Assembly: GCF_000152965.1 (NCBI RefSeq)
Contig: NZ_CH902583.1
Location: forward strand, 1,790,764-1,854,763
DNA length: 64,000 nucleotides
Source: Roseobacter sp. MED193
Lineage (GTDB): Bacteria; Pseudomonadota; Alphaproteobacteria; Rhodobacterales; Rhodobacteraceae
Direction: 5' to 3'
The notes below the pieces were generated by a model. That model saw only the letters and a list, made by a program, of their open reading frames with translations, did not search any database and was not told the origin of the DNA. Each line of letters opens with the position of its first letter. Position 1 is the stretch's first letter. The position numbers and the translations under genes are program-made. This document shows, piece after piece, positions 19,636-64,000 of this stretch.

Positions 19636-20667
19636 ATGAGCGCCGCTCCCGAACACGCCCCTACCATGGCCCAGACCACCTTGGCCGAGCGCCTTGGCCC
19701 CTATATGCCCGTGCTGCTGGTACCGCTGTTGGCCTTGGCAGGCTTTCTCGCCATCATGAACCCGGCCAGCTGGCTGACGCTCACGGTTTCAGGCCTCGCA
19801 ATGGGTATGATGATCTTTATCATGGCATCAGGCCTCACCTTGGTCTTTGGGCTGATGGATGTGATCAACTTTGGCCATGGCGCCTTTGTCTCGGTTGGGG
19901 CCTTTGTAGGCATCACCGTCTTGATGACCCTCGGCCACATGACCCAAGCACCCTCCCTAATGCTAAATCTCGGAGCTGTCTTGCTGGCTGTCCTTGGAGC
20001 CATGTTGGCCACTGGCGCCATGGGCTGGGCCTTTGAAAAAGTCATTGTCGCGCCCGTTTATGGCCATCACCTAAAACAGATCCTCGTCACCATGGGCGGG
20101 CTCATCGTGGTGGAACAGCTAATCATCGTGCTCTGGGGCCCCGAAGAGATCTATTTCAACCGCCCCGAGGCCCTGAAAGGCGCCATCACCTTTGCTGGGG
20201 CCGCGATCGAGAAATACCGGCTGGTCGCTGTCGCCGTGGGCCTGGCAGTCTTTGCCGCTATGCGCTGGGTGCTGCGCCGGACCAAGATCGGCTTGATCGT
20301 GCGCGCCGGTGTAGAAAACGGCGAGATGGTGCAGGCCCTTGGCTATCGGCTAAAACTGGTCTTTGTCGGAGTCTTTATTGCCGGCTCTGCCCTCGCAGGT
20401 CTTGGTGGCGTCATGTGGGCGCTCTACCAAGAGGTGATCACCGCCCATATGGGAAATCATGCGATGATCCTGATCTTTATTGTGGTGATCATCGGCGGGC
20501 TTGGCTCAGTTGAAGGCTGCTTTATTGGCGCTCTCCTGGTGGGGCTGATGCAGAACTACATCGCCTTTATCGAACCCAAGGCAGCCCTCATTTCCAATAT
20601 TGCCCTGATGGTCACCATTCTGATGTGGCGCCCTATGGGCATGATTCCGGTGGTAAAAGCAAAATGA
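19636..20667 (+). CDS. Liv-type ABC transporter permease (LivH-like)
   Basis: Inner-membrane permease of 343 residues with about eight to nine hydrophobic helices. ASGLTLVFGLMDVINFGHGA is the diagnostic LivH segment, and the EAA-like region LRRTKIGLIVRAGVENGEMV follows in the second half. The ATG at 19636 has a strong AGGAGG site. An N-terminal extension of about 45 residues precedes the usual LivH core. The stop overlaps the LivM-like start (ATGA). Confidence 0.92.
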   Translation: MSAAPEHAPTMAQTTLAERLGPYMPVLLVPLLALAGFLAIMNPASWLTLTVSGLAMGMMIFIMASGLTLVFGLMDVINFGHGAFVSVGAFVGITVLMTLGHMTQAPSLMLNLGAVLLAVLGAMLATGAMGWAFEKVIVAPVYGHHLKQILVTMGGLIVVEQLIIVLWGPEEIYFNRPEALKGAITFAGAAIEKYRLVAVAVGLAVFAAMRWVLRRTKIGLIVRAGVENGEMVQALGYRLKLVFVGVFIAGSALAGLGGVMWALYQEVITAHMGNHAMILIFIVVIIGGLGSVEGCFIGALLVGLMQNYIAFIEPKAALISNIALMVTILMWRPMGMIPVVKAK

Positions 20668-21734
20668 TCCGCTCTCTTCTCTCTGGCGATATGCCGCGTT
20701 CCCTGCCACTGGCGCTGATCCTCGGCGGCATTCTGATCTGTCTGGCACTGGCACCATTTTTGTTTCCCGGCGTGCGCACTGTTGATACCGCTGCCCGGAT
20801 CTGCATCTTTATCGTGCTGGTGGCCAGCTATGATCTGCTCTTGGGTTACGGCGGTATCGTCAGTTTTGCCCATACCATGTTCTTTGGCATCGGCGCCTAT
20901 GGCGTTGCCCTGACCTCGGTCCATATGGGGCGCGGCTTTGATGCCATCGCCATCGGCGCCCTGGCTGGCGCTGGCCTGGCGGCGGCTCTGGCCTTGCTGA
21001 TCGGGCTGTTTTCACTGCGGGTACGGGCCATCTTCTTTGCCATGATCACCCTCGCCGTGGCCTCCGCTGTGGCGGTGCTGGTCAGCCAGCTCTCTGGCCT
21101 CACCGGGGGCGAAGATGGCCTCACCTTCAAAACCCCACGCCAGCTGGGCCCCGCCTTCAAATTTGGCAAAGAGATGTTTGACGGCAGCCTCTTTGGGGTC
21201 AAACTCAACGGCAAACTCTTGGCCTATTACTTCGTGTTCATTGGAGCGACCCTGCTGTTTCTGGCGCTGCTACGGGTGGTGAACTCTCCCTTTGGCCGGG
21301 TGTTGCAGGCGATCCGAGAAAATGACTTTCGCGCTGAATCCATTGGTTACCGGGTGGTCTACTACCGTGTCGCCGCCACCTGCCTCTCAGCGGCAATTGC
21401 GGCACTGGCGGGCTCTCTTTATGCGGTCTGGCTACGCTATGTAGGCCCCGACACCGTGCTGTCGATGGAACTGATGATTGATATCCTGCTCATGGTGGTC
21501 ATTGGCGGCATGGGCACGCTCTATGGCGCGATGATCGGCGCCACCCTGTTTGTGCTGGCACAGAACTACCTGCAAAACCTGATGGGCGCCGCCTCTCATC
21601 TGGTAGAGGGACTACCGCTGCTGCCCGAACTGCTCAGCGCCGACCGTTGGCTGCTCTGGCTGGGCGTGCTGTTTATCCTCAGCGTTTACTTCTTCCCAAC
21701 GGGTGTTGTGGGTCGATTGCGCGAAAACCGCTAG
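20664..21734 (+). CDS. Liv-type ABC transporter permease (LivM-like)
   Basis: Second permease, 356 residues with about nine to ten predicted helices. LLGYGGIVSFAHTMFFGIGA and VINSPFGRVLQAIRENDFRA-type segments (here VVNSPFGRVLQAIREND) are the LivM hallmarks. The start is the ATG at 20664, overlapping the previous stop by four bases. It ends the Liv-type set. The 335 bases that follow hold several hairpins and a copy of a repeat rather than a gene. Confidence 0.92.
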   Translation: MIRSLLSGDMPRSLPLALILGGILICLALAPFLFPGVRTVDTAARICIFIVLVASYDLLLGYGGIVSFAHTMFFGIGAYGVALTSVHMGRGFDAIAIGALAGAGLAAALALLIGLFSLRVRAIFFAMITLAVASAVAVLVSQLSGLTGGEDGLTFKTPRQLGPAFKFGKEMFDGSLFGVKLNGKLLAYYFVFIGATLLFLALLRVVNSPFGRVLQAIRENDFRAESIGYRVVYYRVAATCLSAAIAALAGSLYAVWLRYVGPDTVLSMELMIDILLMVVIGGMGTLYGAMIGATLFVLAQNYLQNLMGAASHLVEGLPLLPELLSADRWLLWLGVLFILSVYFFPTGVVGRLRENR

Positions 21735-21798: not shown

Positions 21799-21847
21799 GT
21801 CAAGGGCCGCTGTAAGCGGCCGCGCGCCAGCGCGGTTCACCCTTGAC
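21799..21847 (+). repeat. three-way-junction-like inverted repeat
   Basis: An outer stem, GTCAAGGG at 21799-21806 with CCCTTGAC at 21840-21847, encloses two hairpins: CCGC-TGTAA-GCGG and CGCGC-GCCA-GCGCG (21821-21834). All stems are perfect. It lies 65 bases after the last Liv gene. The function is unknown. Confidence 0.7.
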
Positions 21848-21903: not shown

Positions 21904-21961
21904 GCCGTCTCAGCCAGATTGTCTTTCTTTTGCACGCGCCAACTGTGCCTGCTTGCGGAAC

Positions 21962-22040
21962 CAGCACCGCGACAGCGGTGCTGGGCCCAACGGGAATGGA
22001 TGGATCTTTGATCCACCCCCGTTCCGGGCGGGAGCCCCCC
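21962..22040 (+). repeat. three-hairpin intergenic repeat, copy A
   Basis: Order: hairpin 1 (CAGCACCGC-GACA-GCGGTGCTG, 21962-21983), linker GGCCCAACGGG, hairpin 2 (TGGATC-TTT-GATCCA, 22001-22015, with outer AACGGG/CCCGTT pairing), then GGGCGGGAGCCCCCC, whose GGGC-GGGA-GCCC can form hairpin 3. Stems differ from the other copies but linker, loops and tail are shared. It sits between two convergent genes. Confidence 0.85.
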
Positions 22041-22069
22041 TTTTGTTAAGAGCAGGCTTGCTCCGCGCC

Positions 22070-23734
22070 TTAGCGCAGCAGCTTGCCCTCGGGCCAACTC
22101 AAGGTGGTCTCCAGCCGGATCAGCTTGTCCTCTCCCGGAGCCAGATCGAACTCCCAGGCCAGGATACCGCGCTGCTTATCGACATTCTCCTCGCTGACGC
22201 TTGGCTGGGCACTCCAGGTAATCTCCAGATCTTCCTGCTCGCTATAGGGCACGCGATCCAGCAGGCGCAGCGGCCAGGTCTCGCCCGTCAGGTTCGCCAC
22301 AGAGATCTCCACGACCTCTTCCTGCTGATTGCTACGCGAAATCACCCCACGCTCACCTTCGCTTTTCTGCAAGACATCCCGTGTCAAGCGCAGGCCGTGA
22401 AGAGCACCAAAGCCCAGTTCAGCTTCTTGACCAACCGCCAGTCTTTCGAACTTCGAAAAGGTCACCAACTTGCCATCCACAAACATCGGCACCCGATGGC
22501 TTTCCAGCAGGTCACCGTCAAAATCATTGGTAAACTTCGCCACCCTATAGGCGGTTTCATCCCGCATCGGCACCGCAACTGCCAGCAGCTCGGCCTCTGT
22601 GGTCAGACTGTCCATCTCAAGCTTCAGAATATCCGGACCTGAGGCAATGGAGACAGGATGGGAAAATTGATAGGTGGCCCCGGGACCGCTGGTATCCGCC
22701 CCCCAGTGCACGCCGCCAGCGGCCTCTTCCATGATGATGGGTTCGACAATTGGCTCCGCCAGAAGTCCAACTTGGGATTCATCATATGTTGCAAATTCCT
22801 GGCTGCGCATTTTGGGTTCCGGGCGCGGATCCTGCAGCCACCGTTGCTGGGCGTTGATGTGGGAAGGTGTCCCGCGCTCCCCCGGTACCAGGGTCGATAT
22901 CGTCAGATCGATACCTGACCAGTTCTCGCCAGTTTCTTGCCAGAGGTTGAACCCACGCTTCAGTTCGAGCTCGGGGGTCTCACCCGTGTTCAAATGCCAC
23001 TCATAACTTGGCTGCGAGGACGCGTACCCACTGGTGAAATAGTTCAGCTCCAGCTTGCCGGGCCCTGCTTGGGTCACATCCACCTCAATCACCAGGTAGT
23101 ACCGGTTGGCATCCTCAACCGCGATGGCTGCCAGGGCCCGTTCAGCATCTTTCAGCTCCTCTGCAAGATCCTCCAGCTGATCCTCGATGGCGCGGGCGCG
23201 AATCTGCGCCTCCAACGCCTGCTTGCCTGCGGCACCGGCCTCCGTTGCGATCATCCGGGTGATATCGCGCAGGGCCTCCGCGCCTGCCTCTGCCAGACCC
23301 TCATTGCTGCCCAGCTGCTGCAAAAACCCAATCGCCGTCTGGGCCGCCGCCGCTTCGCTCTCGGCCCGGCTTGCCTCATCGCGAACCGCCTGAATACGGG
23401 TCTCAACCTCTTTGATCACCGCCTCAGCCGCCAGAACCTCTGGGTCGTCAGCGCGCCGGGGCGGCACGCCATCCTCACGGAACAACACCGCAGTCTGTCG
23501 CGCCCCGGTCAGATCCATTTGCAGCGTTTCCAGATCCGCCGAATAGGGAATATTGCTCAGGATCAGACGATGCTGGCCGATTGGCAGATCAAACTCTGCA
23601 TGGCGGGTGATCGCAGCAACCATTGGGTAGACCGTAACCTCGGTCACCCTGCTGTTGACCGTAATGTCATCGGCCCAGGCGAGGCTGGCAACCGAACTCG
23701 CCAGTAGCGACAGCAAGAAAAGGGAAAAACGCAT
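22070..23734 (-). CDS. DUF4139 (mucoidy inhibitor MuiA-like) protein, exported
   Basis: A 554-residue protein with a signal peptide (MRFSLFLLSLLASSVASLAWA, then DDITVNS). The N-terminal DUF4140-type part reads VTEVTVYPMVAAITRHAEF, a long alanine/glutamate-rich coiled coil spans about 100-210, and the C-terminal DUF4139 domain follows with the KRGFNLWQETGENWSGIDLT segment. The expected location is the periplasm. The biochemical function of this family is not established; the name comes from a mucoidy phenotype in other bacteria. The ATG at 23734 has only a weak GAG site. It is convergent with the Liv operon and stands alone. Confidence 0.85.
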   Translation of the reverse strand: MRFSLFLLSLLASSVASLAWADDITVNSRVTEVTVYPMVAAITRHAEFDLPIGQHRLILSNIPYSADLETLQMDLTGARQTAVLFREDGVPPRRADDPEVLAAEAVIKEVETRIQAVRDEASRAESEAAAAQTAIGFLQQLGSNEGLAEAGAEALRDITRMIATEAGAAGKQALEAQIRARAIEDQLEDLAEELKDAERALAAIAVEDANRYYLVIEVDVTQAGPGKLELNYFTSGYASSQPSYEWHLNTGETPELELKRGFNLWQETGENWSGIDLTISTLVPGERGTPSHINAQQRWLQDPRPEPKMRSQEFATYDESQVGLLAEPIVEPIIMEEAAGGVHWGADTSGPGATYQFSHPVSIASGPDILKLEMDSLTTEAELLAVAVPMRDETAYRVAKFTNDFDGDLLESHRVPMFVDGKLVTFSKFERLAVGQEAELGFGALHGLRLTRDVLQKSEGERGVISRSNQQEEVVEISVANLTGETWPLRLLDRVPYSEQEDLEITWSAQPSVSEENVDKQRGILAWEFDLAPGEDKLIRLETTLSWPEGKLLR

Positions 23735-34351: not shown

Positions 34352-34978
34352 TCAGGTCTTGGGCGCGGCGTAGCGGGCCAGAAAAGTCTCAACAGCGCCT
34401 TCAATGATCCTGTTGCGTTCTTCACCAGAAAAATGCGTGTCGATATTGAACAGAAAACGCGGCACCAGATCTGCGCGGCAAAGTTCGGCAAACTGATCAG
34501 CGGCGAGGTCAAAATCCTCTATCTGCAACTCGCCCCGAGCGGCGGCACTGCAAAGATAGTCGCGGATTTTGCCGCGAATCAACAATGGGCCGCTCTCATA
34601 AAACTGGCGCCCAAGGTCAGGAAAGCGATCTGCCTCAGCCACGCAGATACGAAACATCCGCATGCCAAAGTCAGATAGGCTGATAGACAGGATATGCCCG
34701 GCTGCAGCCCGCAAAATTTGACGCGGGGTGCTGGAGCAGGTCGCCAGATCCATTGGCGCGTCCGCCTGTCGAGCACATTCGCTGCGGGCGACCTCCATGA
34801 ACAACAGACGTTTATCCGGAAAATAGCTATAGAGCGTCGCCTTGGAGACCCCGGCCGCGCGTGCGATATCGTCGACGCTGGCCCCCTCAAACCCATCTGC
34901 CAGAAACACCTCTCGCGCGCCTTTCAGTACCTGATCGAACTTGCGACCGGTGCGCAGAATACTGGCGTGTTCGTTCAT
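34352..34978 (-). CDS. TetR family regulator
   Basis: A 208-residue repressor-type protein. The TetR helix-turn-helix occupies about residues 15-62 (VLKGAREVFLADGFEGASV, then AAGVSKATLYSYFPDK). The ligand-binding domain (about 75-200) is of the AcrR C-terminal type. The ATG at 34978 has GAGGT five to six bases upstream; the open frame runs far upstream into a repeat copy and is not used. It is divergent from the AEC transporter, which it may control, by inference. Confidence 0.87.
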   Translation of the reverse strand: MNEHASILRTGRKFDQVLKGAREVFLADGFEGASVDDIARAAGVSKATLYSYFPDKRLLFMEVARSECARQADAPMDLATCSSTPRQILRAAAGHILSISLSDFGMRMFRICVAEADRFPDLGRQFYESGPLLIRGKIRDYLCSAAARGELQIEDFDLAADQFAELCRADLVPRFLFNIDTHFSGEERNRIIEGAVETFLARYAAPKT

Positions 34979-35100
34979 AGCTGACCTCATGGCTCTGGCG
35001 GGCTGGAACACCCAGTCTAGCCGAGAGCGCTCAGAGGCAACAGTCTTCTCTTTACCATCTCTGTTACACCCGGAAGAAGAGGCAACAACGGAAAGGGAGT

Positions 35101-35175
35101 GCTCCCGCCCACCCTTTCTGCCTTCTGGTGAAGGCAAGGGCCGTTGGGGGTGGCGCCGCGCTAACACGCGGCGCG
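35101..35175 (-). repeat. three-hairpin intergenic repeat, copy D (inverted, diverged)
   Basis: Read on the minus strand: hairpin 1 (GCGCCGCG-TGTTAG-CGCGGCGC, 35174-35153), a linker with CCCCAACGG, hairpin 2 (TGCCTTC-ACCA-GAAGGCA, 35136-35119) and GGGCGGGAGC at 35110-35101. Same order and core words as copies A to C, but hairpin 1 and 2 loops differ. It is opposite to copy B. Confidence 0.7.
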
Positions 35176-35299
35176 GCACCGACTGATGCTACGGGGACCA
35201 CAGAACAGGGAGGGCAGCCCAAGGAAATATTTGTAAATACGAGGAACTTCGCCGCTCTGGTCCGGCCTCTATCGAGACGCTCCAGAGCAATATGGCCCA

Positions 35300-35377
35300 C
35301 GCCGCGCGTCAGCGCGGCGCTGGCCCCAACGGGAGACGGGCATCTATGATGCCCATACGACGGGCGGGAGCCCCCCC
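35300..35377 (+). repeat. three-hairpin intergenic repeat, copy B
   Basis: Hairpin 1 is CGCCGCGC-GTCA-GCGCGGCG (35300-35319), the linker contains GGCCCCAACGGG, hairpin 2 is GGGCATC-TAT-GATGCCC (35338-35354), and the tail is CGGGCGGGAGCCCCCCC (35361-35377). The stems differ from copies A and C while the apical ATC-TWT-GAT of hairpin 2, the linker and the tail are kept. Confidence 0.85.
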
Positions 35378-35459
35378 TGTCCAAACACCGCCTGGATTTT
35401 CAAGTAAATCCGGCCCTTCCACCTTGCCTTTTCACCCACAGCCGCTACCACTCGTTTCG

Positions 35460-36389
35460 ATGGCTGACATTTTCTTCAGAACACTGCCCTTCTTTGCAAT
35501 CATCGGCTTGGGCTATTGGGCGGGCCGGACCCGCTTCTTCACAGAAGAGGCCACTGCCTATCTGACCAAGTTCGTATTTTTCTTCCCACTTTCAGCGATG
35601 ATCTTTCGCTTTTCCGCCAATCTCTCTTTTGCGGAGATCTTTGATCCTGACTTAGTTCTGGCCTACCTGGCAGGAACAATGGCTGTCTATCTCTTGGTCA
35701 CCCTCGTGGCGCTTATGCGCCGCCTGGACATGCCTACCTCAGCCGTCGAGGCCCAATGCGCCGCCATCGGCAATGTGGGTTTCCTTGGCCTGCCGATGAT
35801 GGCCATGCTGTTTGGCGAGGCCGCCATCGCCCCGATGATGGTGGTTCTAAGTGTTGATCTTGTGGTATTTTCCTCATTGATCGTGATCCTGATCAACCTC
35901 GGGCGCGGCACGGGGCTGGGTCTGGGCACGCTGCGTCTGGTGCTCTTGGGCCTTCTGCGCAACCCTATGATCTTGGCTATTTGTGCAGGCCTTGCCTGGT
36001 CTGCGGCCGAAGTGCCCATTCCAGTGCCAATGAATGATTTCCTGTCGATCCTGGGCGGCGCGGCTACCCCTGGTGCGCTTTTCGCCATTGGCGCCTCACT
36101 GGCGTCAAAATCTGCCGAACGTATGCAGATTGCCGTCTGGCTCAGCTTTGCCAAACTGGTGCTGCACCCGCTTTGCGTTGCCTTTTGCGTTCTCTATCTG
36201 CTGCCTGTCACCAACTTTTCGGCCATGGTCGCCATTGCTGCCGCATCACTGCCGGTGGCCGGCAATGTCTATATGCTGGCACAGCATTACGGCGTGGCAC
36301 CGCACCGGGCCTCGGCGGCCATTTTGATCTCCACCATAGTCTCCATTTTGACTGTCCCGATGGTGATCGCCTGGGTTTCCGCGCTCTGA
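35460..36389 (+). CDS. AEC (auxin efflux carrier-like) family transporter
   Basis: A 309-residue inner-membrane protein with about ten predicted helices. MADIFFRTLPFFAIIGLGYW at the start, AAIGNVGFLGLPMMAMLFG in the middle and LPVAGNVYMLAQHYGV near the end are the conserved AEC segments. Bacterial members move malonate, malate or other organic acids. The ATG at 35460 fits the family N-terminus, though no good ribosome-binding site is visible. It is divergent from a TetR gene. A hairpin (36388-36409) closes it. Confidence 0.88.
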   Translation: MADIFFRTLPFFAIIGLGYWAGRTRFFTEEATAYLTKFVFFFPLSAMIFRFSANLSFAEIFDPDLVLAYLAGTMAVYLLVTLVALMRRLDMPTSAVEAQCAAIGNVGFLGLPMMAMLFGEAAIAPMMVVLSVDLVVFSSLIVILINLGRGTGLGLGTLRLVLLGLLRNPMILAICAGLAWSAAEVPIPVPMNDFLSILGGAATPGALFAIGASLASKSAERMQIAVWLSFAKLVLHPLCVAFCVLYLLPVTNFSAMVAIAAASLPVAGNVYMLAQHYGVAPHRASAAILISTIVSILTVPMVIAWVSAL

Positions 36390-45152: not shown

Positions 45153-46226
45153 ATGACCGATCTCAGCACGCTTTATGCCCAAAAGATTGCCAATGGCGAT
45201 CTGCGCCCCGACCCTGCACAAGAGGCGGTCCTGCCGCAGTTTGACCGTATCTCCGAAGGGCTGCGGGCCGAGCCGGTGAAACGCGGGCTGTTTCGCCGCG
45301 CCAGCCCAGCCCCGGCGCCAAAGGGTCTGTATCTTTGGGGAGGAGTTGGTCGCGGCAAATCTATGTTGATGGATCTCTTTGTCGACAGCCTTGGTGATAT
45401 CCCGTCTCGGCGTGTACATTTCCATGCCTTCATGCAGGAAATCCACGCCAAGATGCATGCCGCCCGCCAGGAAGGGGTGCAGGATGCCTTGGCGCCAGTG
45501 GCGCAGGAAGTGGCGGCTTCCGTCCGGGTCCTGGCCTTTGACGAGATGCAGATCTCGGACATTACTGATGCGATGATTGTTGGCCGCTTGTTTGAGGCGC
45601 TGTTTGAGGCCGATGTCTGTGTTGTCACAACCTCCAATCGACTGCCGGATGAGCTCTATAAAAACGGGCTGAACCGGCAATTGTTCTTGCCGTTTATTGA
45701 CCTGATCAAGGATAAGATGGAGGTCTGGGAAATGGTGAGCCCGGTGGATTATCGCCAAGACCGTCTGAAGGGCAGTGAAGTCTATTTCAGTCCCGCAGAT
45801 GCAGCGGCGCGGGACATGTTGCAATCAATTTGGCAGGATCTTTCAGGCGGCGAAGCCCAGCCGCTTACGCTTGAAGTAAAGGGGCGCGAAGTGGTTCTGC
45901 CTGCCTTTCGCAACGGCATCGCGCGGGCGACGTTCTTTGATCTCTGCGGCAAGATGCTTGGGCCCGGAGATTATCTCGCTATCGCCGAAGAGGTGAAGGT
46001 TCTGGTACTGGACAATATCCCCCGGCTCAGTCGCAACAACTTCAATGAAGCAAAACGCTTTGTTACGCTGATTGATGCGCTTTATGAAGCAAAGGTCCGG
46101 CTGATCTGTACCGCGGCAGCAGAGCCCGAGTTTCTATATGTCGAGGGCGATGGGGCGTTCGAGTTTGAACGCACTGCTTCGCGCCTACGCGAAATGCAGG
46201 ATCAGGATTGGGGGCAGGCTGAGTAA
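45153..46226 (+). CDS. zapE: cell-division ATPase ZapE (AFG1 family)
   Basis: A 357-residue cytoplasmic P-loop ATPase. Walker A is WGGVGRGKSMLMDLF, Walker B LAFDEMQISD and the arginine-finger region TTSNRLPDELYKNG. LRPDPAQEAVLPQFDRI is the N-terminal AFG1 signature. ZapE acts on the FtsZ ring under stress in Escherichia coli. No ribosome-binding site is visible; a TACCGC-CTTC-GCGGTA hairpin (45127-45142) ends 10 bases before the ATG, which could affect initiation. Copy C of the intergenic repeat follows the gene. Confidence 0.92.
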   Translation: MTDLSTLYAQKIANGDLRPDPAQEAVLPQFDRISEGLRAEPVKRGLFRRASPAPAPKGLYLWGGVGRGKSMLMDLFVDSLGDIPSRRVHFHAFMQEIHAKMHAARQEGVQDALAPVAQEVAASVRVLAFDEMQISDITDAMIVGRLFEALFEADVCVVTTSNRLPDELYKNGLNRQLFLPFIDLIKDKMEVWEMVSPVDYRQDRLKGSEVYFSPADAAARDMLQSIWQDLSGGEAQPLTLEVKGREVVLPAFRNGIARATFFDLCGKMLGPGDYLAIAEEVKVLVLDNIPRLSRNNFNEAKRFVTLIDALYEAKVRLICTAAAEPEFLYVEGDGAFEFERTASRLREMQDQDWGQAE

Positions 46227-46294
46227 GGGGCTTTGCCCCCTCGCGCTAAGGACGCTCAACCCCAGGATATTTGCGGCCAAATGAAAGCGAGACC

Positions 46295-46370
46295 GCGCCG
46301 CATCAGCGGCGCCGGGCCCAAGGGGCAAGGATCAATCTTTGATTGTTCCGAGCCGGGCGGGAGCCCCCCC
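46295..46370 (+). repeat. three-hairpin intergenic repeat, copy C
   Basis: Hairpin 1 is GCGCCGC-ATCA-GCGGCGC (46295-46312), the linker GGGCCCAAGGGG, hairpin 2 GGATCAATC-TTT-GATTGTTCC (46329-46349, one mismatch) and the tail CGGGCGGGAGCCCCCCC (46354-46370). It lies between the convergent zapE and folC genes. A separate GGGGC-TTT-GCCCC hairpin precedes it at about 46229. Confidence 0.85.
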
Positions 46371-46383
46371 CTGCACGCCCGGA

Positions 46384-47658
46384 TCAGCCGTTCTCACGTA
46401 GGATATGGCCTGCAAGGTAAAGTGAGCCACAGATCAAAACCCGGGCGTTGGGGTCTTTTTTCACGATCTTCTCTAGCGCATTGGCGGTGTTGTCGGCGAT
46501 CGATGCTGCAAGCCCAACAGATCGCGCTGCAGCCTGGGTTGCGCTGGCCGGCAGGGTGTTGGCCTCATCCGGGATCGAGATTGCTGTGAGGCTTGCGGCC
46601 TGCCGCGCCAAAGGCGCCAGATAGCCGGTCACATCCTTGGTGTTGAGCATGCCGCAGATCAGATGTGTCGGCCTTTTGGTCATGCCCGCCAGAACCTTTT
46701 CCAGAGCGAGCCCTGCAGCTGCGTTATGGCCCCCGTCCAGCCAAAGTTCGGCAGCGCCTGCGGTCTCAACAAGTGGACCGGAGGTGAGCCGCTGCATTCG
46801 CGCCGGCCAGGTCGCATTTGTCATAGCAGCCTCGCAAGCGGCTTCTTGCGCACCAAGGTGACGCAACGCAGCGAGGGCCGCACCAGCATTTTGGACCTGG
46901 TGGGCTCCCAGTAGAGCTGGCATCGGCAAATCGAGCAGACCGCGTTCATCCTGGAACACCAACCGGTCACGCTCTTGGCTGACATGCCAATGCTGACCAT
47001 AGGCAATCACTGGGGCCCCAAGGCGCTCAGCTGTGGCCTCAATCACCTCCAGAGCCTCATCAGGCTGGGGGCCAACAATCACCGGCACCCCCCGTTTAAT
47101 AATCCCGGCTTTCTCGGTTGCAATCTTGGTCAGGGTATCCCCGAGGAATTGTTCATGATCGATGGAGATCGGCGTGATCACGGTGAGCTCTGGTTGGGTG
47201 ATCACATTTGTGGCATCCAACCGGCCGCCCAGACCGACTTCCAACAGGGTGTAATCCGCCGCGGTGCGGGCAAAGGCCAAGAGAGCAGCCACTGTTGTGA
47301 TTTCAAAATAGGTGATGCTCTCGTCACCATTGGACGCATAACACTCATCCAGCACCTCCGTCAGATGGGGTTCTGAGATCAGCTCGCCTGCCAGACGGAT
47401 GCGTTCGTGGAAGCGCGCCAGATGCGGCGAGGTATAGGCATGCACGGATTTGCCCCAGCCCTCCAGCCCGGCGCGGATCATCGCCTGGGTTGATCCCTTG
47501 CCGTTGGTGCCCGCCAGGTGGATCACCGGTGGCAGCTTGTCCTGCGGGTTATCCAGGCGTTCCAGCAGACGCCAGACCCGATCAAGGGTCAGGTCGATGA
47601 TCTTGGGGTGCAGCGCCAGCATACGGGCGAGGATGGCATCTGAGGTTGGCTGGGTCAT
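46384..47658 (-). CDS. folC: bifunctional folylpolyglutamate / dihydrofolate synthase
   Basis: A 424-residue cytoplasmic ligase that adds glutamate to dihydropteroate and folates. The ATP loop is IHLAGTNGKGSTQAMI, followed by YTSPHLARFHERIRL and the Mur-ligase-type VGLGGRLDATN and TPISIDHEQFLGDT. The ATG at 47658 (MTQPTS) is preferred, with GGTGAG upstream; a GTG three codons earlier remains possible. It lies after accD, but the accD terminator separates the two. Confidence 0.94.
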   Translation of the reverse strand: MTQPTSDAILARMLALHPKIIDLTLDRVWRLLERLDNPQDKLPPVIHLAGTNGKGSTQAMIRAGLEGWGKSVHAYTSPHLARFHERIRLAGELISEPHLTEVLDECYASNGDESITYFEITTVAALLAFARTAADYTLLEVGLGGRLDATNVITQPELTVITPISIDHEQFLGDTLTKIATEKAGIIKRGVPVIVGPQPDEALEVIEATAERLGAPVIAYGQHWHVSQERDRLVFQDERGLLDLPMPALLGAHQVQNAGAALAALRHLGAQEAACEAAMTNATWPARMQRLTSGPLVETAGAAELWLDGGHNAAAGLALEKVLAGMTKRPTHLICGMLNTKDVTGYLAPLARQAASLTAISIPDEANTLPASATQAAARSVGLAASIADNTANALEKIVKKDPNARVLICGSLYLAGHILRENG

Positions 47659-47711
47659 AGGGCACACTCACCGGCAGCAAAGGAAAACAAGGGGATCAGC
47701 AAAATAGAAAA

Positions 47712-63055: not shown

Positions 63056-63132
<77 letters not shown>

Positions 63133-63180
63133 TCAGTGTCGGAAGTTTATATCGTTTAGAGATTTTTTGGATTTTACTAG

Positions 63181-63297
63181 GTTTGGCAGTGACCTACTCT
63201 CCCACGACTTAAGCCGCAGTACCATTGGCGCAAAGGCACTTAACTTCCGGGTTCGGGATGGGACCGGGTGTTTTGCTCTCGCTATCGCCACCAAACC
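63181..63297 (-). rRNA. rrf: 5S ribosomal RNA
   Basis: About 117 bases on the minus strand. The ends pair as GTTTGG with CCAAAC (stem I); the conserved CCCATCCCGAACCCGGAAGT is internal. Its end positions are taken from stem I and may be off by a base or two. It lies between 23S and tRNA-fMet. Confidence 0.93.
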
Positions 63298-63300
63298 AAG

Positions 63301-63333
63301 AAAAATCCAAGAACCTGCGGTTCTTGGATTTTT
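63301..63333 (-). other. perfect 15-bp terminator-like hairpin before 5S
   Basis: AAAAATCCAAGAACC at 63301-63315 and GGTTCTTGGATTTTT at 63319-63333 are exact reverse complements with a three-base loop. On the minus strand the transcript ends the stem with TTTTTC, only four bases before 5S begins. It could act as an RNase III site or an antiterminated terminator. Confidence 0.85.
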
Positions 63334-63350
63334 TTGGTTGGCGGTCGGCA

Positions 63351-63499
63351 GGGTATTTGCATCGCAAATGCCCGAGAGACCGCACCCCAGTTATGTCACG
63401 AGGACATTTCCAAGATCGCAGGGAAACAATCAACACTGACGACTTTACGCAAGTAAAGTCTGTCACGCAGCAGGCAGTGTATTTGCCGGGCAAATGCAC
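63351..63499 (-). repeat. duplicated hairpin (TATTTGC/GCAAATGC) in the 23S-5S spacer
   Basis: The first copy has GGGTATTTGC (63351-63360) with GCAAATGCCC (63364-63373). The second has GTGTATTTGC with GCAAATGCAC (about 63478-63500). The core is the same, the flanks and loops differ, and pairing is kept in both, including changed outer pairs. The GACTTTAC-GCAA-GTAAAGTC hairpin lies between them at 63441-63460. Confidence 0.75.
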
Positions 63500-63569
63500 G
63501 TTGCTGCACCTTTGTTATGTCACAAGTTCATGTGGTGCTTATTTGGTTCTTGGCTGTCTATTACTAGAT

Positions 63570-64000
63570 CAGATCAAGCCAATCGGGCGATTAGTACCAG
63601 TCAACTGAACGTGTTACCACGCTTACATCTCTGGCCTATTGACGAGGTGGTCTACCTCGGCCCTCAGGGATACCTTGTTTTGAGGGGGGCTTCCCGCTTA
63701 GATGCCTTCAGCGGTTATCCTGTCCGAACATAGCTACCCAGCACTGCCGTTGGCACGACAACTGGTCCACCAGTGGTTCGTTCACCCCGGTCCTCTCGTA
63801 CTAGGGGCAACTCCTCTCAAGTATCCTACACCCACGGCAGATAGGGACCGAACTGTCTCACGACGTTCTAAACCCAGCTCACGTACCTCTTTAAACGGCG
63901 AACAGCCGTACCCTTGGGACCTGCTCCAGCCCCAGGATGAGATGAGCCGACATCGAGGTGCCAAACACTGCCGTCGATATGGACTCTTGGGCAGTATCAG
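63570..64000 (-). rRNA. rrl: 23S ribosomal RNA, 3' part, cut by window edge
   Basis: The 3' end of 23S on the minus strand, running off the right edge. The sarcin-ricin loop AGTACGAGAGGACC is present at about 63795, and the 3' terminal helix region ending GCTTGATCTG marks the boundary near 63570. The exact 3' end is approximate. Confidence 0.96.

Follow-up and report, generated by a model that had tools for sequence, protein, structure and literature searches.

A dispersed intergenic element with a conserved fold in Roseobacter sp. MED193 and other Rhodobacteraceae, and its candidate role at mRNA 3' ends

Introduction

Dispersed structured repeats at gene ends are a known kind of bacterial sequence, and REP sequences and BIMEs with their RAYT (TnpA-REP) transposases resemble the element described here in being short, extragenic, palindromic and present in many copies, often at gene ends and in inverted pairs. 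According to the accessible portion of PMC3733652, in which the taxon names that were looked for do not occur, REP/RAYT repeats end in a fixed tetranucleotide of the GTAG or CGTC type. No such tetranucleotide was found in our element, as the 5' foot of its first hairpin, SL1, varies (ACC, GCC, CCA and others). It also differs from REP/BIME in its two unlike hairpins within about 80 nt, in linkers that stay fixed while the stems change, in the lack of a Y1 transposase in the home genome, and in the conservation across the genus of the two sites that were followed.

Miniature inverted-repeat elements (MITEs) are likewise small, non-coding and dispersed, with some near-identical copies; for the present element, however, a limited search found no parent transposon, and no target duplication was seen by eye around the near-identical copies inspected in genome G016. 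Intrinsic (Rho-independent) and bidirectional terminators share with it the position between convergent genes and, in about half of the home copies, a short U-tract, and the compensatory evolution of terminator stems has been studied in Bacillus cereus (PMC5381666, as far as its available text goes). In contrast to such terminators, the element has an extended two-hairpin body, fixed motifs, a last hairpin of 3 bp and no excess of U-tracts in named records (among the matches listed). A structured RNA candidate found only in Rhodobacterales, the HRC-8-4 motif, was obtained by comparative genomics and has a single main location, between ccoP and ccoG (available part of PMC8632094). Both are structured-RNA candidates of Rhodobacterales, but our element is dispersed over dozens of sites, and the two are set apart by the description given in that part.

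Here we describe the element from four copies in a 64,000-nt stretch of the Roseobacter sp. MED193 genome (the window), and from its relatives in the same genome (the home genome) and in other genomes.

Materials and Methods

Genes were called with a purpose-made simple codon-usage gene finder. An exact search of the home genome with GGGCGGGAGCNCCC gave 16 places, and the reversed control gave one match. The complete element is present at fifteen of these 16; the remaining place (L008), which lacks the rest of it, was dropped before alignment. These fifteen together with copy D of the window formed alignment A3, from which the covariance model R1 was made. A4 comprises the 51 home copies. A5 comprises 106 copies from 100 of the at least 114 named-genome stretches listed, some of them from the home genus, and model R2 was built from it. 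The cross-genome scan with R1 used stricter filters. In the R2 survey no more than the best 18 candidates were scored per genome, and the copy counts obtained there are lower bounds.

Gene neighbours and tails outside the home genome were counted on fetched loci, excluding copies near a locus end or without genes on both sides. The copies used for the SL2-base and SL3 counts were chosen by a pattern fixing CCCAA and GGGAG, and in the wobble counts GT and AC imperfect pairs were given an equal penalty. The set of 12 matches from the folC site includes the inverted second copy in L241.

Results

The four copies of the window (Table 1) are the sole matches of the covariance-model search inside it. 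The first-pass annotation had described them as one architecture at four places outside genes. Direct reading and the covariance model bore out both the architecture and the positions, and no copy falls in likely coding sequence. A and C have a plus-strand gene upstream and a convergent gene downstream; B and D share a divergent gap. The arms of hairpin 1, the linker CCCAACGG or CCCAAGGG, the second hairpin and GGGCGGGAGC are all present on direct reading. The apical ATC-TWT-GAT reported for A to C is there as well; the CCCCC tail reported for every copy is not found in D, which has GCACTCCC instead and whose apical loop differs from that of the other three. Folding of A, B, C and D gave z values of -5.2, -4.0, -2.4 and -4.2 against 200 dinucleotide shuffles each, of which 0, 0, 3 and 0, respectively, folded equally well. 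Between D and B (35177-35296), a possible GCTCTGG...CCAGAGC hairpin was noticed by eye.

Table 1. Copies of the element in the window, with neighbouring genes and a companion repeat
Feature	Position	Strand	Remarks
Neighbour of the LivM-like gene	19636-20667		UrtB/LivH model matches, below cut-off
Sense gene upstream of copy A, LivM-like ABC permease	20625..21734	+	by eye; start uncertain
Companion palindrome GTCAAGGGC...ACCCTTGA	21799..21846	+	upstream of copy A; two inner hairpins, three-way-junction-like
Copy A	21961..22041	+	covariance-model coordinates; SL1, GGCCCAA, long SL2, GCGGGAGC and C-rich tail
Convergent neighbour of copy A, MuiA-family protein	22070..23734	-	TIGR02231, above cut-off
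Gene downstream of copy D	34352..34978	-	best matches TetR-type regulators, all below cut-off
Copy D	35095..35177	-	covariance-model coordinates; paired with B; differs in apical loop and tail
Copy B	35296..35377	+	covariance-model coordinates; shares a divergent gap with its partner D
Gene downstream of copy B	35460..36389	+	best match auxin-efflux-carrier type, below cut-off; start inferred (35448-36389 scanned)
Sense gene upstream of copy C, ZapE	45153..46226	+	above cut-off
Copy C	46292..46370	+	covariance-model coordinates; between zapE and folC
Convergent neighbour of copy C, FolC	46384..47667	-	TIGR01499, above cut-off

From 5' to 3', the element of about 80 nt consists of SL1, a GC-rich hairpin of about 6-10 bp, a linker of 3-4 nt, the motif GGCCCAA, hairpin SL2, GCGGGAGC and, after a single free base, a C/T-rich tail. 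The three hairpins first proposed were retained, with the extent of the second corrected to a single long stem that runs from directly after CCCAA to directly before GCGGGAG. In a test of the base of this stem that was not fitted to the model, the first four and last four bases pair at 70% in 89 distinct non-CGGG copies, as against 43% with shuffled partners (z 11.6). The commoner CGGG...GACGG class (146 distinct copies) has a G·G mismatch at the SL2 base, and its pairing exceeds that of shuffles from the third pair onward (0.56 vs 0.47, z 10.8). The third hairpin, SL3, has 3 bp only (GGG[AGCN]YYY) and is supported by C/T changes facing GGG. The three tail positions facing GGG read YYY in 160 of 239 copies, with 32.5 expected, and RRR in one; the 312 cells at the three pairs in A5 comprise 225 G-C, 68 G·U and 19 unpaired. 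A longer SL3 that pairs with the end of SL2 was rejected because the extensions show no covariation. A candidate GCCC/GGGC outer stem, which competes with the longer SL2, showed zero paired changes in A4 and A5.

It had been claimed from the four copies that the stem bases change while pairing is kept, and this was confirmed at better than chance in 51 and 106 copies, at an orthologous site and in counts unfitted to the model. The numbers of double-change cells with pairing kept were 156 in A4 (mean of 500 shuffles 42.2, sd 5.3, none of them reaching the observed count) and 334 in A5 (shuffled 94.2, sd 7.5; above all 500 shuffles), which are counts that favour the model since both alignments were fitted to it, whereas the wobble and SL2-base tests are unfitted. 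Among the 12 matches of the folC site, paired double changes numbered 11, compared with 2.1 after shuffling (0 of 500 as high); the signal among the 10 matches of the MuiA site was weaker (4 vs 1.2 shuffled, with 4 of 500 shuffles as high).

A functional RNA strand tolerates G·U pairs, but not A·C pairs. Among imperfect pairs on the plus strand, GT outnumbered AC by 17:4 over the 119 distinct stems of SL1 (p 0.007) and by 87:24 over the 187 of SL2 (p 1e-9), the p-values in this and the pairing counts being too small because the copies are related (orthologues, several genomes). The ratio in random hairpins of the home genome was 769:767 (1906 hairpins), and shuffled partners gave 1.25. A looser SL1 count (GT 25 vs AC 18, distinct stems) arose because stems could extend into the fixed flanks, and the restricted count is the 17:4 given above. 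The excess of G·T over A·C thus indicates that the plus strand, as originally written, is the one that folds. The initial proposal of a selected structure in RNA or single-stranded DNA is supported, and the bias picks out the strand given there, although either kind of molecule would show it. The element has both a wobble bias toward one strand and compensatory stem changes, as expected of a structured RNA, the latter more weakly at the MuiA site. A coding origin was rejected, as short ORFs through the copies explain neither the pairing nor the wobble bias.

The covariance-model search showed that the four copies belong to a family with dozens of further members. In the home genome, R1 gave 51 matches at E<=1 and 45 at E<=0.01 when the best 150 of 3867 first-look candidates were scored, and all 51 span the full model length. 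The other 11 genomes of the genus that were searched had 35-71 matches each. At E<=0.01, R1 detected the element in 12 of 12 genus genomes (home included), in 5 of 24 others of the family and in 0 of 24 from other families of the class, and R2 at E<=1e-4 found it in 37 of 248 family genomes, one per genus. With more candidates scored, G008 had 70 copies and G235 had 83 at E<=0.001. The pattern scan of named genomes returned at least 114 stretches, nearly all with Rhodobacteraceae titles; carriers among the matches listed include Phaeobacter, Leisingera, Ruegeria, Tritonibacter, Tropicibacter, Tropicimonas, Mangrovicoccus and others. A Shinella record from that scan (L171) gave no model match at E<=0.001. 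A Nocardioides marinus DP1N28-1 record (JAHVJD010000003.1; L143, L144) carries two copies of the element; locus L144 is 77% identical to home locus L030 over 1.5 kb, and judged by its sequence the record is probably a mislabelled member of the Rhodobacteraceae. Copy A matched one plasmid record, of Tritonibacter mobilis, without annotation. Pseudophaeobacter is among the named records closest in DNA identity, and the window probably belongs to that genus or to a near relative of it. Locus L213 proved to be an rRNA region in which 5554 of 12001 bases are N-masked, the remainder having 54.5% GC.

The first-pass annotation had not recognised the element as a named one, and a scan of the window with Rfam 15 at gathering thresholds likewise returned only rRNA and tRNA (63059-64000). 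A lax scan around copy B gave six matches, all far under gathering scores, and a known Rfam RNA was rejected. No description of the element was found in the main texts of the open-licence PMC literature searched, nor in the available parts of PMC4809877, PMC5107571, PMC2864571, PMC12306157 and PMC8632094. Consensus pieces searched as letters in the literature gave unrelated matches only (Drosophila, Xist). The family is therefore in neither Rfam 15 as scanned nor the literature reached.

The 51 home copies lie mainly in convergent gaps (38 copies); in six both neighbours are antisense, in five both are sense, and two (B and D) are in a divergent gap. At least one gene ends into the gap in 49 of the 51, and the next downstream gene is antisense in 44. 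As background, 120 gaps of 85 nt or longer were taken from 21 sampled stretches, one of them the window, with slightly different settings; 20 of these gaps were convergent and 35 divergent. The enrichment in convergent gaps (38/51 vs 20/120) has a Fisher p of 6e-13, and p is 6e-12 when each gap is counted once (33/44); a second count that kept 50 home copies had 37 convergent. Convergent copies also numbered 14 of 20 in G008, 17 of 22 in G235, 8 of 12 in G016 and, among the matches listed, 74 of 139 in the named records. For the home copies the median distance is 29 nt between the 3' tip and the stop of the antisense neighbour and 142 nt to the end of the upstream sense gene, and one copy overlaps a predicted gene end by 8 nt. 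The placement of the home copies is not that of a riboswitch or 5' leader attenuator, a sense gene following downstream in only 7 of 51 (five ++, two -+). All close pairs counted, that of B and D among them, are (-,+), 5' end to 5' end, in six of six cases within 320 bp in the home genome and, among the matches listed, in 11 of 11 (G008) and three of three (G235) within 600 bp and in 11 of 11 within 300 bp in the named records. In L263, L271 (G235) and L241, overlapping (-,+) pairs apparently have, by eye, one SL1 palindrome between two outward-facing copies.

The tail was examined for TTT within 16 nt of the 3' end. It occurs in 26 of 51 home copies, as against 6 of 51 at a control distance further down, and there is no corresponding AAA excess on the other side (12 vs 11 of the 51). 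The counts were 11 vs 6 of 20 in G008 and 7 vs 2 of 22 in G235, with no excess in G016 (0 vs 1 of 12) or, among the matches listed, in the named records (28 vs 26 of 139). The home copies could thus terminate transcription intrinsically, but this is not a general property of the element.

Two sites were followed across the genus. The element lies downstream of folC (the copy C site) in 11 of 12 genomes including home, the exception, G010, having different flanking DNA, and downstream of the MuiA-family gene (the copy A site) in all 10 of the 12 genomes searched that have this gene, home included. In a pilot of 28 loci, many more sites were shared. By protein comparison, at least four of 26 loci from other genera adjoin the same genes as a home copy (L253/L052, L254/L031, L267/L043 and L265/L017; two loci overlap). 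In genome G016, which is from another genus, eight near-identical copies occur at seven fetched places (L253, L255-L260), with 81-85 of 85 positions alike. They share the element and about 25 nt 5' of it, and six of the eight share a further GC-rich module upstream. The DNA differs directly after GGGAG(C), and hence the 3' arm of SL3 comes from the site. These copies are a sign of recent spread or homogenisation; since the copy in L253 stands at a site with a divergent copy in the home genome, gene conversion is as likely there as new insertion.

No match to a known transposon end was obtained in the comparisons made. Y1 transposase (PF01797) had no hit in the home genome, was present in three of 22 genomes tested (G005, G018, G026) and was absent from the copy-rich G006, G008 and G016; a REP driven at present by a RAYT was accordingly rejected for the home genome. 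A phage element is unsupported, copy B having no phage match.

Other repeats accompany some copies. Nine of 10 exact-pattern genome matches of the companion palindrome are within 135 nt of an element copy (loci L272-L281), and by eye it is present at the copy A site in 10 of 10 genomes. After the palindrome at this site come, again by eye, a hairpin, CCTCAGGG...CCCTGAGG, and then CTTCTCAGCAG or a close variant. Just 5' of copy C (46229-46294) are a GGGGCTTTGCCCC hairpin and a CCCCAGGATATTT...CCAAATGAAAG module, and a module resembling the latter precedes six of the eight near-identical G016 copies (L253-L259).

Discussion

The element probably works as RNA, and it likely marks or protects message ends at convergent junctions. 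From its fold we infer, tentatively and at a strength somewhat short of probable, that it is a dispersed, structure-conserved mRNA 3'-end element that stops or caps transcripts running toward the convergent neighbour. In such a mechanism, the transcript of the upstream gene would reach the element, SL1 and SL2 would fold, and the fixed flanks GGCCCAA and GCGGGAGC could be read by RNA polymerase or a protein. The RNA end would be set at or just past GGG[AGCN]YYY and the pyrimidine tail, and the transcript would not run antisense into the next gene. The frequent short U-tract could make termination intrinsic in the home genome; elsewhere the mechanism would require a factor or the protection of a processed 3' end.

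Varying stems beside fixed flanks, G·T pairs on the plus strand, the convergent gaps and the two conserved sites all argue for a 3'-end element. Against it stand the U-tract, which is not general, the 3-bp SL3, and copies B and D, which lie upstream of genes in a divergent gap. The distance from the 3' tip to the antisense gene is also shorter than that between the sense gene and the 5' end, so that position alone would suit an element of the antisense gene, and the (-,+) close pairs and near-identical G016 copies point to a mobile or gene-converting repeat.

These last observations lead to the first alternative, a REP-like mobile repeat of single-stranded DNA that has lost its transposase; its top strand, which would be the plus strand, would fold, and its location next to gene ends would be incidental. 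The dozens of extragenic copies, the exclusively (-,+) close pairs and the eight near-identical G016 copies at seven places are what such a repeat would give, and the plus-strand wobble bias fits folded single-stranded DNA too. However, no Y1 (RAYT) transposase exists in the home genome or G016, and only three of 22 genomes have one. Moreover, the two followed sites are kept across the genus, at least four of 26 other-genus loci adjoin the same genes, and structure is kept at single orthologous sites, while the near-identical G016 copy at a site with a divergent home copy fits gene conversion. We regard a mobile repeat of this kind as rather unlikely.

A second alternative is that 3'-end formation is not the main role, and that the element is a regulatory RNA derived from 3' UTRs, or a site or decoy for a putative RNA-binding protein reading GGCCCAA and GCGGGAGC. 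Two fixed motifs beside freely changing stems, in as many copies as a binding site would have, are consistent with this; the up to 83 copies per genome are not, as the sibling sRNA sets known to us have far fewer members. A role of this sort is distinctly unlikely.

The element could also act on the other strand and serve the antisense gene, whose stop lies near the 3' tip, as its terminator or 3' UTR. The median distances of 29 nt to that stop and 142 nt to the stop of the sense gene favour this reading, as do the 44 of 51 copies with an antisense neighbour downstream. On that strand, however, the tolerated imperfect pairs would be A·C rather than G·U, the U-tract is not in excess, and the folding z is weaker for the three copies folded that way, A, B and C, which leaves an action there improbable.

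A DNA site for chromosome organisation, suggested by the rarity of copies near the terminus and their tendency to face the origin (placed at about 2.1-2.2 Mb on contig 1 by GC skew of sampled stretches), is most improbable: the origin-proximal half of home contig 1 holds 41 of 50 copies and that of G008 47 of 68, the terminus quarter is poor in G008 (3/68) and G235 (10/81), and 36 of 50 home copies point originward (Fisher p 0.002, the best of several cuts, post hoc), but G235 has no origin enrichment (41/81), the orientation bias would follow if antisense neighbours tend to the leading strand, and a wobble bias specific to one strand speaks for a single strand that folds. We take the bias in chromosome position as a candidate tie to conserved gene neighbourhoods rather than as a function at the origin.

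Returning to an mRNA 3'-end element, a bolder form of it is possible, if doubtful. The element may be a genome-wide read-through insulator, in which one RNA fold with the motifs GGCCCAA and GCGGGAGC would stand at dozens of convergent junctions, a putative factor would end transcription or fix the RNA 3' end, and the copies would be kept uniform by gene conversion. It would then represent a class of factor-dependent terminators with a defined RNA code.

Head-on genes are closely packed in bacterial genomes, and it is only partly understood how neighbours are guarded from read-through, less well still where an intrinsic terminator is weak. An RNA fold that recurs at such junctions, carries fixed motifs and is conserved at the followed sites offers dozens of natural test sites per genome. 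Should the element recruit a factor, it could be used to isolate that factor; should it be a domesticated repeat, it would illustrate how a mobile sequence turns into a standard part of 3' UTRs.
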